DNA of 20,431 bases from a virus, in IMG/VR virus record IMGVR_UViG_3300025098_000359, positions 1 through 20,431 of that record. One strand, written 5' to 3'. Below, piece after piece: positions 1 to 13,287 of this stretch. The number at the start of each line of letters is the position of its first letter. The first letter of the stretch is position 1. Made by a program: the position numbers and the translations under genes. Below the pieces are notes generated by a model that searched no databases, had not been told where the DNA came from, and was given only the letters and a program-made list of their open reading frames with translations.

Positions 1-198
1 TCCTACGCTACACACGCTCCAAAGTGTCCAGTGCTTGCGGATTCAATAAAAGACTCATTTTCTGCAATGTTTTCAGAAAGCATCCTTGACTCCCTTGCTT
101 CGGAATGGAAGATGGACGGCACTGACGTTCCGAGTGTGCCTGAGTTTGGAACATTCGATCCAGAACTTCTTAAGCAATCTAAATATTTCTTCAGCTAA
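1..198 (+). CDS. 1: T7-like single-subunit RNA polymerase, C-terminal end (partial)
   Basis: Frame 1 is open from the first base to a TAA at 196-198, giving the last 65 residues of a longer protein cut by the window edge. It reads SYATHAPKCPVLADSI early, has EFGTFDPELL near the end, and terminates in SKYFFS. This matches the C-terminal layout of phage T7-family RNA polymerases: a Ser-Tyr/Phe-x-Thr-His/Ile motif, an LA/LADS helix, then a G-x-hydrophobic-D-L segment and a terminal aromatic 'foot' (T7 ends in FAFA). Such an enzyme transcribes the phage middle and late genes from phage-specific promoters. It lies directly upstream of ssb, as in T7-like phages. The assignment rests on only 65 residues but the context agrees. 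Confidence 0.85.
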   Translation, partial: SYATHAPKCPVLADSIKDSFSAMFSESILDSLASEWKMDGTDVPSVPEFGTFDPELLKQSKYFFS

Positions 199-819: not shown

Positions 820-1153
820 ATTTGAAAAGAACTTAGCCCTCGACCTGAAAAGGTCGGGGGTTTCTTTTACATACGAGTCGCTGCGTTTTGAGTATTACAA
901 GACGCACCATTACACTCCTGACTTTGTTTTGCACAATGGTGTGATCATTGAGGCAAAGGGAAGGTTCACAGGGTCAGACAGGATGAAGCACCTTTTGATT
1001 AAGGAGCAGCACCCTGATGCTGATATCCGATTCGTATTTATGAGAGCAAGCAACACCTTATCAAAAAGATCCAAGACCACTTATGGAGCGTGGTGTGACA
1101 AGCACAACTTCCTTTGGTCAGAGATGACTGTCCCAAAAGCATGGACTACTTAG
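803..1153 (+). CDS. 3: Endonuclease I, Holliday-junction resolvase (T7 gp3-like)
   Basis: A 116-residue protein that aligns well with T7 endonuclease I (149 residues). All four catalytic positions are present: Glu8 in FRSKFEKN (T7 Glu20), Asp40 in YTPDF (Asp55), Glu50 and Lys52 in IIEAKG (Glu65/Lys67). Downstream KHLLIKEQHPDADIRFVF and YGAWCDKH are also family signatures. The enzyme resolves branched DNA and, in T7, helps degrade host DNA. It lacks the basic C-terminal extension of T7. The start at 803 lies inside ssb and is one of the few with an upstream purine motif (GAAGGA, 791-796 region). Glu8 is encoded upstream of the terminator-like hairpin at 837-868, so that hairpin must be part of the coding sequence. 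The 3' end overlaps the primase-helicase start by 13 bases. Confidence 0.93.
   Translation: MTFRSKFEKNLALDLKRSGVSFTYESLRFEYYKTHHYTPDFVLHNGVIIEAKGRFTGSDRMKHLLIKEQHPDADIRFVFMRASNTLSKRSKTTYGAWCDKHNFLWSEMTVPKAWTT
837..868 (+). terminator. Intrinsic-terminator-like hairpin inside the endonuclease I gene
   Basis: The arm 837-846 (CCCTCGACCT) pairs with 851-860 (AGGTCGGGGG) in a 10-bp stem with one G-T wobble, closing a GAAA tetraloop (847-850). TTTCTTTT follows at once (861-868). This is the textbook form of a rho-independent terminator. It starts 18 bases after the ssb stop and lies wholly within codons 12-22 of the endonuclease gene. Its activity is not known. Confidence 0.75.
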
Positions 1154-6226: not shown

Positions 6227-6424
6227 ATGGATGAATATATCCCAAATATACCGACTGATCTTGTAAAGTTCTTGGAGGGCAGAATACCTTCCAAGGACTT
6301 TTCTGTTTTTGATGAACTTCGGTATATCGACTTCTATAGCGGACAACGTGCTGTTGTTGCTCTTCTTCGTCAACTCCACCATGAACAGGTGGAACGCTCC
6401 TACTCATCAACCCCTAATACCTAA
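6227..6424 (+). CDS. Hypothetical small helical phage protein
   Basis: A 65-residue protein beginning MDEYIPNIPTDLVKFLEGR and continuing with DELRYIDFYSGQRAVVALLR. The pattern of a short Pro-rich start, a 'LVKFLE' helix and a 'GQRxVVxxLR' helix resembles small conserved proteins often found just upstream of the structural genes in podophages. I know no function for them. It begins 38 bases after the small basic gene and ends seven bases before my preferred start of the gp7.3-like gene. The C-terminal 16 residues (EQVERSYSSTPNT end) look unstructured. Confidence 0.65.
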   Translation: MDEYIPNIPTDLVKFLEGRIPSKDFSVFDELRYIDFYSGQRAVVALLRQLHHEQVERSYSSTPNT

Positions 6425-9818: not shown

Positions 9819-10607
9819 ATGGAGTCAGTTCAAATTAACGAACCCACTAAACCTGAAAACATCTCTCTTGAAGAACAAGCAGAGATGCAAGAGCAAGCCC
9901 GTATGGAGCAAGAGCAATCTCAGTTCTCGCAAGAGGACACCGAGGGCGCCGAACCGCAACCAGAGGGTGAGCGTCCTGAGTGGCTACCTGAAAAGTTTCA
10001 GTCACCAGAGGATCTTGCACAGGCTTACAGTGAACTAGAAAAGCAGTATCACTCTAAAGGTGAAGAGACCACTGAGCAGTCAGTTGACGAAGACCCTGTG
10101 CCTTCAGAGTATGTCAACAGCACCATTCAAAGTGCCTCTGATGAGTATGCTGAGTTAGGCCGCCTTTCTGATGAAACCTTCAATGCTTTGGAGGCTTCTG
10201 GTCTTTCAAGGGATCTTGTCGAGCGTTACATCAATGGCGTTGAGGCTTCTAGTCAGCAACAAACCGAAAGCCTTATGAGTGAGGTCGGAGGTGAGGCTAA
10301 CTACCAAGCTATGTCGGAGTGGGCTTCCACCGCCCTGACCGAAGACGAGCAAGATGTGTTTAACGCTACAGTTGAGTCTGGAGACAACAATGCTGCTCTT
10401 ATGGCTATCCGAGGTCTTTACGCTCGTTACAGTTCTGATGGAGGCAAGGCTTTGAATCTTTATCAAGGTGACACTGTCGGTGCTGGCGTTACTCCGTTTA
10501 CTTCTACCGCACAGGTTACTGAAGCTATGCAAGACGCAAGGTATGGTAAAGACCCTGCGTATCGTGCCCATATTGAGAAGAGACTTTCGGTCTCCTCTAT
10601 CATTTAA
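9819..10607 (+). CDS. 9: Capsid assembly scaffolding protein, T7 gp9-like
   Basis: A 262-residue, highly acidic and Gln/Glu-rich protein (T7 gp9 has 307). The N-terminal 45 residues are low-complexity (LEEQAEMQEQARMEQEQSQF), followed by the scaffold hallmark PEWLPEKFQSPEDLAQAYSE and a helical body (LGRLSDETFNALEASGLS). The C-terminal part has FTSTAQVTEAMQDARYGKDP and RAHIEKRLSVSSII, the Y-x-x-DP-A-Y type end typical of podoviral scaffolds that contact the capsid protein. It guides assembly of gp10 around the portal and then leaves. It starts six bases after the portal stop, preceded by AACAACAATAATTACTT and no Shine-Dalgarno sequence. Confidence 0.93.
   Translation: MESVQINEPTKPENISLEEQAEMQEQARMEQEQSQFSQEDTEGAEPQPEGERPEWLPEKFQSPEDLAQAYSELEKQYHSKGEETTEQSVDEDPVPSEYVNSTIQSASDEYAELGRLSDETFNALEASGLSRDLVERYINGVEASSQQQTESLMSEVGGEANYQAMSEWASTALTEDEQDVFNATVESGDNNAALMAIRGLYARYSSDGGKALNLYQGDTVGAGVTPFTSTAQVTEAMQDARYGKDPAYRAHIEKRLSVSSII
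10576..10598 (+). other. Hairpin at the end of the scaffold gene
   Basis: A 9-bp inverted repeat with one A-C mismatch (10576-10584 with 10590-10598) around a TTTCG loop lies over the last codons of the scaffold gene and is followed by an AT-rich stretch (TTTAAATTTATTTG), not a clean T-run. It could be a weak terminator, an RNA-stabilising 3' hairpin or an RNase processing site. Confidence 0.35.
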
Positions 10608-10618
10608 ATTTATTTGTT

Positions 10619-10804
10619 ATGTCTGAAACTATCACCTTCATCAAAGATAACTTTGATTCGCTTTTGGGAGCCGCTACTGCTGTAGTTGCTGCTGCGTCTG
10701 CGGTCTGTGCTCTTACGCCCACACCATCGGACGATAAGGTTGTAGGCAAGGTCTATAAGATCCTTGAGTGGCTTGCACTGAATGTTGGTAAGGCAAAGCA
10801 ATAA
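10619..10804 (+). CDS. Small membrane protein, holin candidate
   Basis: A 61-residue protein with one clear hydrophobic segment at residues about 14-33 (LLGAATAVVAAASAVCALTP). It has an acidic N-terminus (MSETITFIKDNFD), and a C-terminal half with PTPSDDKVVGKVYKILEWL and the end ALNVGKAKQ. Size, single Ala/Val-rich membrane helix and position next to a spanin-like lipoprotein gene suggest a holin-type protein that permeabilises the inner membrane at lysis. The 'ALTPTPxDDxxVGKxYKIxEWLALNVGKAK' arrangement is one I have seen repeatedly in small proteins of aquatic phages, mostly without tested function. It starts 12 bases after the scaffold stop. A terminator-like hairpin begins 21 bases after its stop. 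Confidence 0.6.
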   Translation: MSETITFIKDNFDSLLGAATAVVAAASAVCALTPTPSDDKVVGKVYKILEWLALNVGKAKQ

Positions 10805-10807
10805 CAG

Positions 10808-11023
10808 ATGCTAAAACTTTTAACAGCCGCCCTTGAAGCCTATGTGGAGACACTGAAGTTCAAGAGGCGGCTTTTTATTTATAAACTAGAAGATGAAATT
10901 GATTCCTTGGCTGCTGATGGCAGTCCTTCTGCCAAGCTGCGGCTTGAGCGGTTATCGAAAAGACTCCGCTTTGAAGTCGTCCGCACTTTACGATCCTCCA
11001 ACAGTAACCCTGAAGGAGAATAA
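10808..11023 (+). CDS. Small charged helical protein, possible lysis-cluster partner
   Basis: A 71-residue protein starting four bases after the holin-like gene. It is predicted mostly helical: LLTAALEAYVETLKFKRR, then a YKLEDEIDSLAADG-type acidic helix, a GSPSAKLRLERLSKRLRF segment, and a Ser-rich tail. The 'EDEIDxLAADGSPSAKLRxERLxKR' pattern recurs in short podophage proteins. It could be an i-spanin analogue because a lipoprotein gene is nested in its 3' half in another frame, as Rz1 is in Rz, but it lacks an obvious membrane anchor (the first 24 residues are amphipathic and charged), so I leave the role open. Codons 7-24 carry the terminator-like hairpin at 10825-10880. Confidence 0.65.
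   Translation: MLKLLTAALEAYVETLKFKRRLFIYKLEDEIDSLAADGSPSAKLRLERLSKRLRFEVVRTLRSSNSNPEGE
10825..10880 (+). terminator. Intrinsic-terminator-like hairpin inside the gene after the holin candidate
   Basis: The basal stem pairs 10825-10831 (AGCCGCC) with 10866-10872 (GGCGGCT). After a single bulged A (10865) it continues with 10832-10837 (CTTGAA) and 10859-10864 (TTCAAG), 13 pairs in all. An inner GTG/CAC stem (10844-10846 with 10851-10853) closes a GAGA tetraloop. TTTTATTT follows directly (10873-10880). It lies inside codons 6-25 of the 71-residue gene. The form is that of a rho-independent terminator with a long loop; activity is unknown. Confidence 0.65.
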
Positions 11024-11123
11024 GGTCTATGAGTTTGAGGAAGGCACACTCAGTGGCAGAGGTCAAAAGTTTCACTCGGACTATAGTTATAGACGAGCAA
11101 TCATAATCGGATCACAGAAATAA
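10893..11123 (+). CDS. Outer-membrane lipoprotein, o-spanin (Rz1-like) candidate nested in another frame
   Basis: A 76-residue frame whose first 131 bases lie inside the preceding 71-residue gene, shifted by +1. The N-terminus MKLIPWLLMAVLLPSC is a short type II signal peptide: Lys2, a hydrophobic core, and a lipobox-like LPSC with the lipidated Cys16. Pro at -2 is unusual but tolerated in some lipoproteins. The mature 61 residues include DPPTVTLKENKVYEFEEGTL, then GRGQKFHSDYSYRRAIIIGSQK, a pattern I have seen in small proteins of T7-like phages. A short lipoprotein nested in a lysis-cluster gene is the classical Rz1 arrangement; spanins fuse inner and outer membranes in the last step of Gram-negative lysis. 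The ATG follows CTAGAAG. The spanin role is inferred from signal peptide, size and nesting. Confidence 0.65.
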   Translation: MKLIPWLLMAVLLPSCGLSGYRKDSALKSSALYDPPTVTLKENKVYEFEEGTLSGRGQKFHSDYSYRRAIIIGSQK

Positions 11124-11127
11124 TAAC

Positions 11128-11391
11128 ATGGCTACAAAGAGAAAAGGACTATCCTTGCGTAAGGAGCATAAATCTAAAAGTGGAGGATTATCCGCTAAAG
11201 GACGAAGCTACTACAACCGCAAGACAGGTAGTAATCTCAAAGCCCCAGTGACTGAAAGTAAACCCAAAGGTAAACGAGCAGCACGTAAGAAATCTTTTTG
11301 TGCGAGAATGAAGGGAGTTAAAGGCCCAATGAAAGACTCTAAGGGTCGCCCTACTCGCAAAGCGTTAGCACTCCGCAAATGGAAGTGCTGA
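11128..11391 (+). CDS. Lys/Arg-rich DUF6321-like protein
   Basis: An 87-residue, extremely basic protein. It contains GGLSAKGRSYYNRKTGSNLK, an ARKKSFCARMKGVKGPMKD segment, and ends SKGRPTRKALALRKWKC. These match the small conserved phage family I know as DUF6321 ('GGL-x-x-KGR-x-x-YNR-x-TGSNLK', 'SFCARM-x-G', 'RKALALRKW-x-C'). Two Cys residues (SFC and the terminal WKC) are conserved features. Function is not established. Charge and position next to the capsid gene would fit DNA binding in the virion or during packaging. It starts five bases after the lipoprotein stop, with the leader GAAATAATAAC that closely resembles the ssb leader and no Shine-Dalgarno sequence. Confidence 0.8.
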   Translation: MATKRKGLSLRKEHKSKSGGLSAKGRSYYNRKTGSNLKAPVTESKPKGKRAARKKSFCARMKGVKGPMKDSKGRPTRKALALRKWKC

Positions 11392-11587
11392 CCAAGTAAT
11401 ACTTTTCTCACCATTATACGAAAGCACCTATTGTTTTCGGTGGTGTTAAAAACCAAAGTCATCATAAAAGTTGAGCTTCGGTGTGGCAGAAGATGAGACC
11501 CAATACATTGGACAATCAATAACTCGGAACCCATCAGAAACAATTATATTGAAGACATCGAATAACCCCAAAACATAATATACTACT
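11392..11587 (+). other. Non-coding leader of the major capsid gene
   Basis: This 196-base stretch is the largest gene-free gap in the window. No + strand frame of useful length is present, and the minus-strand frames crossing it run antisense through real genes. It contains a perfect 12-base palindrome CCAATACATTGG at 11500-11511, an AT-rich final part (ACATAATATACTACT before the ATG) and no Shine-Dalgarno sequence. In T7 the gap before gene 10 holds the strongest late promoter, so a promoter or RNA-processing site is expected here. No clear sigma-70 -35/-10 pair is seen. Confidence 0.6.
11397..11420 (+). promoter_or_regulatory. Weak T7-promoter-like candidate upstream of the capsid gene
   Basis: TAATAC (11397-11402) followed by CTCAC (11407-11411) and an ATTATACG stretch shares word order with the T7 promoter (TAATAC, CTCAC, TATAG), but with a 4-base rather than 2-base gap between TAATAC and CTCAC. 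I found no second copy elsewhere in the window, so this is only a candidate based on position and partial similarity. Confidence 0.2.
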
Positions 11588-12604
11588 ATGGCTAATGGAG
11601 CTACTACTCCGTCCCGCTTGGGACAAGTAAATGGTGCTGGCGATGCTTCCGCACTGTTTCTAAAGGTGTTCTCAGGAGAGATCCTGACCACTTTCGAGGA
11701 AATGAACGTGATGAAAGACCTTCACACGATTCGCACAATTTCCTCTGGTAAGTCCGCACAGTTCCCTGTGACAGGAATCGCTACTGCTCAGTATCACACC
11801 CCAGGTGAGAACATTGCTGATGCAGGTGCTGGTTATCTCAGCACTATCAAACACGCTGAGAAAGTCATCACCATCGATGATGTTCTTGTGGCATCTACGT
11901 TCATCGCCAACATCGATGAGCTTAAGAACCACTATGACGTTCGCTCGGTGTATGCCCGTGAACTCGGTAAGGCTTTGGCAAAACGCTTCGACATCGCTAC
12001 GATGAAGACTCTTGTTGCCGCTTCCCGCACTTCTGCTTCCATCACTGGTAATCCTGACGGCATCTCCGTTGCTGGAACCTTTGCTGGCACTGCTGCAACT
12101 GGTGCAGAGCTTCAGGCTGAGTTGTTTAGTGCTGCTCAGAAGCTGGACGAGAATGACATCCCCAACGATGGTCAGCGTTTCGCTATCTTGAAGCCAGCCG
12201 ACTACTACACCCTTCTCGCTTCTGGCGAAGAAGTGATCAACCGAGACTTCGGTGGTCGTGGTGACGTTGCTACTGGTAACATCCCAATGGTTGCTGGTAT
12301 CCGCATCTTAAAGTCCAACCACCTCGCTGACGTTTCTGTCGCTGAAGCCTCTCAGGATCAGGATGACGACAACGCTTCCAACGATGTGTTTGGTGGTGCT
12401 GGCACTGGTTACAATGGTGACCTTTCGGATGTCACCATCATTGGTGGTCACCCTGCTGCTGTAGGCACTGTGAAGCTCCTTGATCTGGCGACTGAGTCGG
12501 ACTACAAGGTTGAGCTTCAAGGTTCGCTGTTCGTTGCTAAGTATGCAATGGGTCACGGCATCCTTCGTCCTGAAGCTGCGTTTGAGATCCGCAACACCAA
12601 CTAA
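11588..12604 (+). CDS. 10: Major capsid protein, T7 gp10A-like
   Basis: A 338-residue protein (T7 gp10A has 345) of the HK97-fold podoviral capsid family. Signatures include ALFLKVFSGEILTTFEEMNV, the E-loop region GKSAQFPVTGIATAQYHTPG, the KRFDIATMKTLVAASR helix, the NDGQRFAILKPADYY strand, and the C-terminal GILRPEAAFEIRNTN. It forms the icosahedral head on the gp9 scaffold. The end shows no obvious slippery heptamer, so a T7-type 10B frameshift product is not indicated. Codon use looks highly biased (GCT, GGT, ATC, AAC), fitting very high expression. The gene stands alone between a 196-base leader and a strong terminator, the only such isolation in the window. Confidence 0.97.
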   Translation: MANGATTPSRLGQVNGAGDASALFLKVFSGEILTTFEEMNVMKDLHTIRTISSGKSAQFPVTGIATAQYHTPGENIADAGAGYLSTIKHAEKVITIDDVLVASTFIANIDELKNHYDVRSVYARELGKALAKRFDIATMKTLVAASRTSASITGNPDGISVAGTFAGTAATGAELQAELFSAAQKLDENDIPNDGQRFAILKPADYYTLLASGEEVINRDFGGRGDVATGNIPMVAGIRILKSNHLADVSVAEASQDQDDDNASNDVFGGAGTGYNGDLSDVTIIGGHPAAVGTVKLLDLATESDYKVELQGSLFVAKYAMGHGILRPEAAFEIRNTN

Positions 12605-12619
12605 ACCTCAAAGGGTCGT

Positions 12620-12670
12620 CCCGTCCTTTTGGATTCGTTCCAAAGGGGCGGGGCGTTCCCTCTTTCTTTT
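12620..12670 (+). terminator. Intrinsic terminator after the major capsid gene
   Basis: A 14-bp stem (12620-12633 with 12639-12652, two G-T wobbles) closes a TTCGT loop and is followed by GCGTTCCCTCTTTCTTTT. It begins 16 bases after the capsid stop. Position and form match the T7 T-phi terminator downstream of gene 10, which lowers transcription of the tail genes relative to the capsid gene. The T-rich tail is interrupted and set a few bases away from the stem, so termination may be partial. Confidence 0.8.
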
Positions 12671-12690
12671 AACACAATTTTCATTTAGAC

Positions 12691-13287
12691 ATGGCGACTT
12701 TGACTACGCAACTAGAAGCAGTTAATACGATGCTGGGCTACATCACAGAAGCCCCAGTGAACTCCATTGCGGACAGTTCTAGTCTCCCGCCTTCCGCTGC
12801 AATCGCAAAGGACATCCTTGATGAGGTCTCAAGAGACGTTCAATCTCAAGGGTGGCATTTCAACACCGCAGAGGATTACAAGCTGGAAGCAAACGTCAGT
12901 GGCGAGTTTGTGCTTCCTGACAACACTATGACAGTCGATGCCGTGGATACATCTGTGGATGTTGTCCAACGTGGCACTCGGCTTTTTGACCGCACCAATC
13001 AGACCTTTATATTTGAAAAGGACTCGGTGAAGGTTAACATCACTTTCCTTCTGGACTTTGAGGAGCTTCCAGAACGTGCAAGACGCTACATCTCTATTAA
13101 GGCTGCAAGAGCACTGAGCAATCGCTTGGTAGGCTCTAGAGAGATTGAAGCCTTAATCCTTAGAGATGAGGTGTTTGCCAAAGCTAGTTTCGAGGATGAG
13201 GAGTTCGATGCTTCTGATCGCACCATCTTCAAGAACTACGATGCTTACAGTCGCATTGGTATCAATCGCAACACCAACATCTCTTAA
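12691..13287 (+). CDS. 11: Tail tubular protein A (T7 gp11-like)
   Basis: A 198-residue protein (T7 gp11 has 196). It begins with the family pattern TQLEAVNTMLGYITEAPVNS, continues with ILDEVSRDVQSQGWHFN, a beta region FVLPDNTMTVDAVD and RTNQTFIFEKD, then the helix RARRYISIKAARALSNRLVG. It forms the dodecameric ring under the portal that adapts head to tail. The start follows the capsid terminator by 20 bases with an AT-rich leader (TTTTCATTTAGAC) and no Shine-Dalgarno sequence. It ends eight bases before tail tubular protein B. Confidence 0.95.
   Translation: MATLTTQLEAVNTMLGYITEAPVNSIADSSSLPPSAAIAKDILDEVSRDVQSQGWHFNTAEDYKLEANVSGEFVLPDNTMTVDAVDTSVDVVQRGTRLFDRTNQTFIFEKDSVKVNITFLLDFEELPERARRYISIKAARALSNRLVGSREIEALILRDEVFAKASFEDEEFDASDRTIFKNYDAYSRIGINRNTNIS

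Follow-up and report, generated by a model that had tools for sequence, protein, structure and literature searches.

The phage terminators closest to the hairpin described here (termed T3) are T-phi of phage T7 and the post-capsid terminator of the relative LUZ100, in which the capsid gene carries its own phage promoter and is followed by a strong terminator just downstream (PMC10134795). Both consist, like T3, of a coding-strand hairpin with a U-run, and both are found in the late region near the capsid gene of a phage with a T7-type RNA polymerase; they are intergenic and follow the capsid gene, whereas T3 is intragenic, precedes the capsid unit and has a larger apical part. A second point of comparison is provided by the tR2 constructs, whose terminator sits within the initial 100 bp of a coding sequence (PMC4824070). 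Here, too, the stem lies shortly after the start codon and is expected to work with the ribosome not caught up; these constructs were engineered and concern the E. coli polymerase, whereas T3 is natural, constrained by the encoded peptide and probably met by a phage polymerase. For a terminator 30 bp after the AUG in E. coli, translation costs only about 10% of efficiency, the first ribosome being still behind (PMC4824070), and ribosomes cannot closely follow T7 RNA polymerase, which moves at about 230 nt/s (PMC7858274).

In the literature searched, from which subscription journals were mostly absent, there was no direct precedent for intragenic terminators in T7-like phages. The RNase III processing hairpins of these phages resemble T3 in being strong and in marking borders between genes in the phage mRNA. 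Their stems are longer and a U-run is not required, whereas T3 has a strong U-run and a stem of 13 bp with a bulge, which is short for an RNase III site.

Structure and setting of the T3 hairpin

The window (the whole stretch of DNA analysed, 20.4 kb) is a piece of a marine T7-like phage genome with genes for SSB, endonuclease I, portal, scaffold and capsid. By comparison of capsid proteins, the best-matching named genome was Ayaqvirus MedDCM-OCT-S45-C18 (AP013544, 74% identity). The polymerase fragment at the left end of the window terminates in ...KYFFS, as does the polymerase of AP013544, and the gene is complete in AP013544 and in the record of L138. The features discussed are collected in Table 1.

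Table 1. Features of the window; scores are terminator scores, approximate in absolute value.
Feature	Position	Strand	Remarks
T7-type (single-subunit) RNA polymerase gene, C-terminal end	1-198	+	PF00940 over cut-off; phrog_414
T1, intragenic hairpin with U-run, codons 11-20 of endonuclease I	835-862	+	score 27.5 for 837-860
T2, intragenic hairpin with U-run, codons 13-25 of a 65-aa gene (6227-6424)	6265-6301	+	score 13.4 for 6268-6298
Small membrane-protein (holin-like) gene upstream of T3	10619-10804	+	phrog_9685 (function unknown); TPTPxDD motif conserved in relatives
71-aa gene, function unknown, containing T3	10808-11023	+	core LEDxID..AADGS conserved in IMG/VR relatives
T3, 13-bp stem AGCCGCC-CTTGAA / TTCAAG-(A)-GGCGGCT with 21-nt apical part (inner GTG-GAGA-CAC)	10825-10872	+	score 15.7 for 10826-10871
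U-run of T3, TTTTATTT, from Leu22-Phe23-Ile24-Tyr25 codons	10873-10880	+	7 U in 8; aromatic-Ile/Val-Tyr conserved in family
Lipoprotein gene, out-of-frame overlap with 71-aa gene	10893-11123	+	LPSC lipobox; ending HSDYSYRRAIIIG conserved in relatives
Major capsid protein gene, downstream of T3	11588-12604	+	PF21703; phrog_267
Intergenic terminator after capsid gene (T-phi position)	12612-12661	+	score 2.2 for 12612-12663; position occupied in most relatives

The stop of the holin-like gene lies 3 nt upstream of the start of the 71-aa gene and 20 nt upstream of the T3 stem. The hairpin begins 17 nt into the 71-aa gene and ends 20 nt before the start of the lipoprotein gene, which is located 12 nt past the U-run. 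A profile search of the IMG/VR stretches examined recovered 156 encoded relatives of the 71-aa gene, in all of which the LEDxID..AADGS core is invariant. Judged by these relatives, the gene is real and conserved, and because the overlapping lipoprotein reading frame is conserved as well, T3 lies truly within coding sequence.

The overlap of the two genes, both frames of which are conserved in relatives, resembles in its layout the overlapping Rz/Rz1 genes, although a clear membrane anchor was not seen in the 71-aa protein. Neither this protein nor the lipoprotein had a tblastn match among named phages.

In the predicted fold, AGCCGCC (10825-10831) pairs with GGCGGCT (10866-10872) to give the outer stem, and CTTGAA (10832-10837) pairs with TTCAAG (10859-10864) to give the inner stem, A10865 being bulged. 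Fold and coordinates thus agree with the first-pass annotation, which had placed this hairpin and its TTTTATTT tail in codons 6-25 of the 71-residue gene that follows the holin-like gene. The inner GAGA tetraloop that it reported is likewise present (10847-10850); it is closed by three pairs only (GTG/CAC) and set apart by a 6x5 internal loop, and is therefore not the loop of the main stem. With 21 nt, the apical part is longer than that of most terminators (usual loop about 3-10 nt), which counts against a terminator, although it may shorten to the tetraloop on the weak 3-bp helix. The GGCGGCT arm directly abuts the U-run, so that the G+C-rich stem and U-run of an intrinsic terminator are both present. 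The minimum free energy (MFE) is -24.8 kcal/mol, and none of 200 dinucleotide shuffles was as stable (z -3.6). A consensus terminator scan, which permits loops of up to 8 nt, did not list T3; Rfam gave no match at the gathering score for the window and five related loci, nor at E values up to 5 for positions 10600-12700.

Recoding tests and comparison with relatives

Codons for the same peptide were drawn from the usage of the window, and none of 2,000 such resamplings reached the MFE of T3; when its own codons were permuted, five of 2,000 did so. Recoding of every gene gave no site of T3 strength with an equally good tail in any of 240 windows. Three strong intragenic sites were observed on the + strand (0.11 expected; none of the 240 recoded windows held three), and the window has none on the minus strand. 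Terminator scores were calculated with our own implementation of a d'Aubenton-Carafa-type score with ViennaRNA energies, the absolute values of which are approximate; only four sites in the window scored positive, all on the coding (+) strand, and the best score on the minus strand was -11.8. By these comparisons T3 is a structure beyond chance, and the refutation named in the first-pass annotation, that shuffled synonymous sequences often attain its stability, does not hold.

Evidence on the evolution of T3 comes from a single informative comparison, the relative L004/L243 being the only one suited to it. It shares 81% nucleotide identity with the window over 3.9 kb, and third positions differ at 41% of 1,191 shared codons. 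Within the 51-nt hairpin segment, four changes were found, against ten predicted by resampling real codon replacements. All 13 pairs are kept (p about 0.01), as is the fold energy (p about 0.005). The stem contains two changes, which hit both members of one pair: C becomes U (Ala8 to Val) and the G opposite becomes A without altering the protein, so that C-G is replaced by U-A, a double-sided compensatory change. Taken with the recoding tests, this marks T3 as a selected structure. In L243 the site scored 12.2 and was the sole + strand site on the contig above d = -12; stem and U-run are combined at T3 in both L243 and the window.

Of the other distinct homologues of the 71-aa gene, over 50 were examined, and none had the T3 hairpin with its U-run. 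The test for conservation in the family as a whole was thus negative, and the expectation that relatives would preserve the stem with compensation holds for L004/L243 only. Because the other homologues do not have the stem, T3 is specific to the lineage of the window phage and one close relative; it is young and does not extend beyond this clade.

Hairpins at other gene borders

The two further intragenic sites of the window differ from T3 in their history. In 27 distinct sequences of the endonuclease I family (window 831-866; L022-L076) the codons at the T1 position give rise to a stem of 12-15 bp, with seven pairs changed on both sides. Cells with double-sided changes numbered 42, compared with 11.9 in shuffles, and 90.6% of the alignment cells were paired, compared with at most 54% when the alignment was slid. 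These figures are strong evidence that the T1 stem is a selected RNA structure. Its U-run, TTTCTTTTA, occurs only in the window lineage, the bases after the stem in other lineages not being a U-run, and the hairpin is absent from more distant endonucleases. T1 is much older than T3 and may be a different kind of element. That the 65-aa gene carrying T2 is real is shown by an AP013544 ORF with 58% identity to it. The gene sits between the DNA-metabolism and structural modules; the T2 hairpin is absent from the homologous ORF.

Another clade (L143, L144, L147, L149, L153 and L165), together with L160, has an unrelated small gene after the holin-like gene, and a strong hairpin is formed by the first codons of this gene. 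In most of these genomes it lies 29-39 nt downstream of the holin stop codon, at the border that T3 occupies in the window. The stems of L143, L147 and L165 (GTAAGTC/GACTTAC, GCAAGTC/GACTTGC and GTAGGTC/GACCTAC, respectively) show two double-sided compensatory differences. The tails are pyrimidine-rich with only modest U-runs, which counts against reading T3 as a terminator.

The capsid region was surveyed in 31 representative loci. Strong terminator-like sites in the approximately 1.1 kb before the capsid gene numbered ten on the + strand, of which only about five are independent, and one on the minus strand; a single site was found inside the capsid gene, and after it such sites were common (19 loci). 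This suggests that the pre-capsid border often carries a stop or processing hairpin, the place of which shifts between lineages.

In L089, L095, L103 and L138, the DUF6321 gene upstream of the capsid gene carries a mid-gene terminator-like hairpin (AGACCGC...GCGGTCT-TTTTTG), the tail of which is built from T-rich codons of the conserved KRSFCARM motif.

The first-pass annotation had regarded T3 as a repeat of the arrangement at 837-868 and both as signs of a recurring strategy with GNRA loops. Both hairpins are real and intragenic; T1 has no U-run outside the window lineage, however, and the two cannot be taken simply as one device present twice. The GNRA argument was rejected: the tetraloop stands on 3 bp, GAGA falls on the codons GTG-GAG-ACA, and the GAAA seen in L004 results from a synonymous GAG-to-GAA substitution. 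A recurring strategy is supported in part. In favour of recurrence are the three positive intragenic sites of the window and the covarying post-holin hairpin in the unrelated gene of a different clade; against it are the absence of T3 elsewhere, the absence of T2 from AP013544 and the conservation of the T1 stem without a U-run. It is conceivable, although we are inclined to doubt it, that some marine T7-like phages systematically encode the transcription stops of module ends, and related RNA hairpins, within the opening codons of the gene that follows. A polymerase moving ahead of the ribosomes would permit such placement. Covarying hairpins that evolved independently would then recur at fixed borders (SSB/endonuclease and holin/next gene), and these would persist even where the carrier gene is swapped for an unrelated one.

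Readings of T3

T3 is probably an ordinary intrinsic (class I) terminator in an unusual place, which functions with partial efficiency and ends the portal-scaffold-holin transcripts, mainly for the T7-type RNA polymerase of the phage; that termination occurs, with what efficiency and on which polymerase is what we infer from the fold, its position and its preservation. Transcripts of the portal-scaffold-holin block would end about 70-75 nt past the holin stop codon, short of the lipoprotein, DUF6321 and capsid genes, and read-through would supply the 71-aa and lipoprotein genes. The stem draws on free codon choices, and the U-run on the codons of a Leu-Phe-Ile-Tyr stretch, the aromatic part of which is conserved. 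The intragenic position of T3 would be due solely to the lack of space between abutting genes. A phage-type polymerase leaves the ribosomes behind, which would let T3 function at this place; even with a slower polymerase they would not yet have caught up in the first 100 bp. Each terminated message would have a start codon but no stop codon, a cost that would speak against a terminator.

Alternatively, T3 might serve in mRNA processing (by RNase III-like cleavage) or in the stabilisation of 3' ends (by blocking 3' exonucleases) between holin-side and capsid-side messages, its U-run being incidental to the conserved aromatic-Ile/Val-Tyr stretch of the protein. Such a role stays a rival because several of the strong, covarying intragenic hairpins that relatives have at the SSB/endonuclease and holin/next-gene borders have no good U-run; we consider it unlikely, since the U-run of T3 is among the best of the window and is paired with the stem in both the window and L243, and since the bulged 13-bp stem is short for RNase III. 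The position of the hairpin, so close behind the start codon of the 71-aa gene and in front of that of the lipoprotein gene, would also suit an element that has no role in transcription and instead reduces or times the translation of either the 71-aa gene or the lipoprotein gene overlapping it. This would leave unexplained why the stem abuts a U-run and why hairpin-plus-U-run sites are biased to the coding strand, and we regard it as the least probable of the readings. That T3 was found by inspection of the whole window and occurs in one small clade only would be expected if codon choices happened to form the hairpin and common descent kept it in L004. Such an origin is improbable in view of the recodings (none of 2,000 and none of 240), the retention of the stem, with a compensatory change, despite 41% divergence at third positions (p about 0.01), and the strand asymmetry of positive terminator scores.

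Transcription stops are rarely placed within protein-coding sequence, which gives T3 its mild importance. If T3 is a terminator, the gene starts of compact phage genomes hold a second, regulatory code; such sites escape terminator finders with a loop-length limit and those that pass over coding sequence, as T3 escaped the consensus scan; and transcript maps of such phages should show intragenic 3' ends. T3 also provides an example on which termination dependent on polymerase-ribosome uncoupling can be tested.

When the window and AP013544 were searched by words for a repeated motif that could be a phage promoter, only AACAA-type runs were returned. No phage promoter was identified between T3 and the capsid gene, which counts against the terminator reading. 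The capsid gene has a non-coding leader (window 11392-11587; upstream of the capsid genes of L088-L141) without an Rfam match. It is highly conserved (e.g., GATGAGACCCAC...GTGGACAATCAATAACTC), its small CCAN/NTGG stem is changed on both sides in distant relatives, and it could be a structured leader or the site of a phage promoter.
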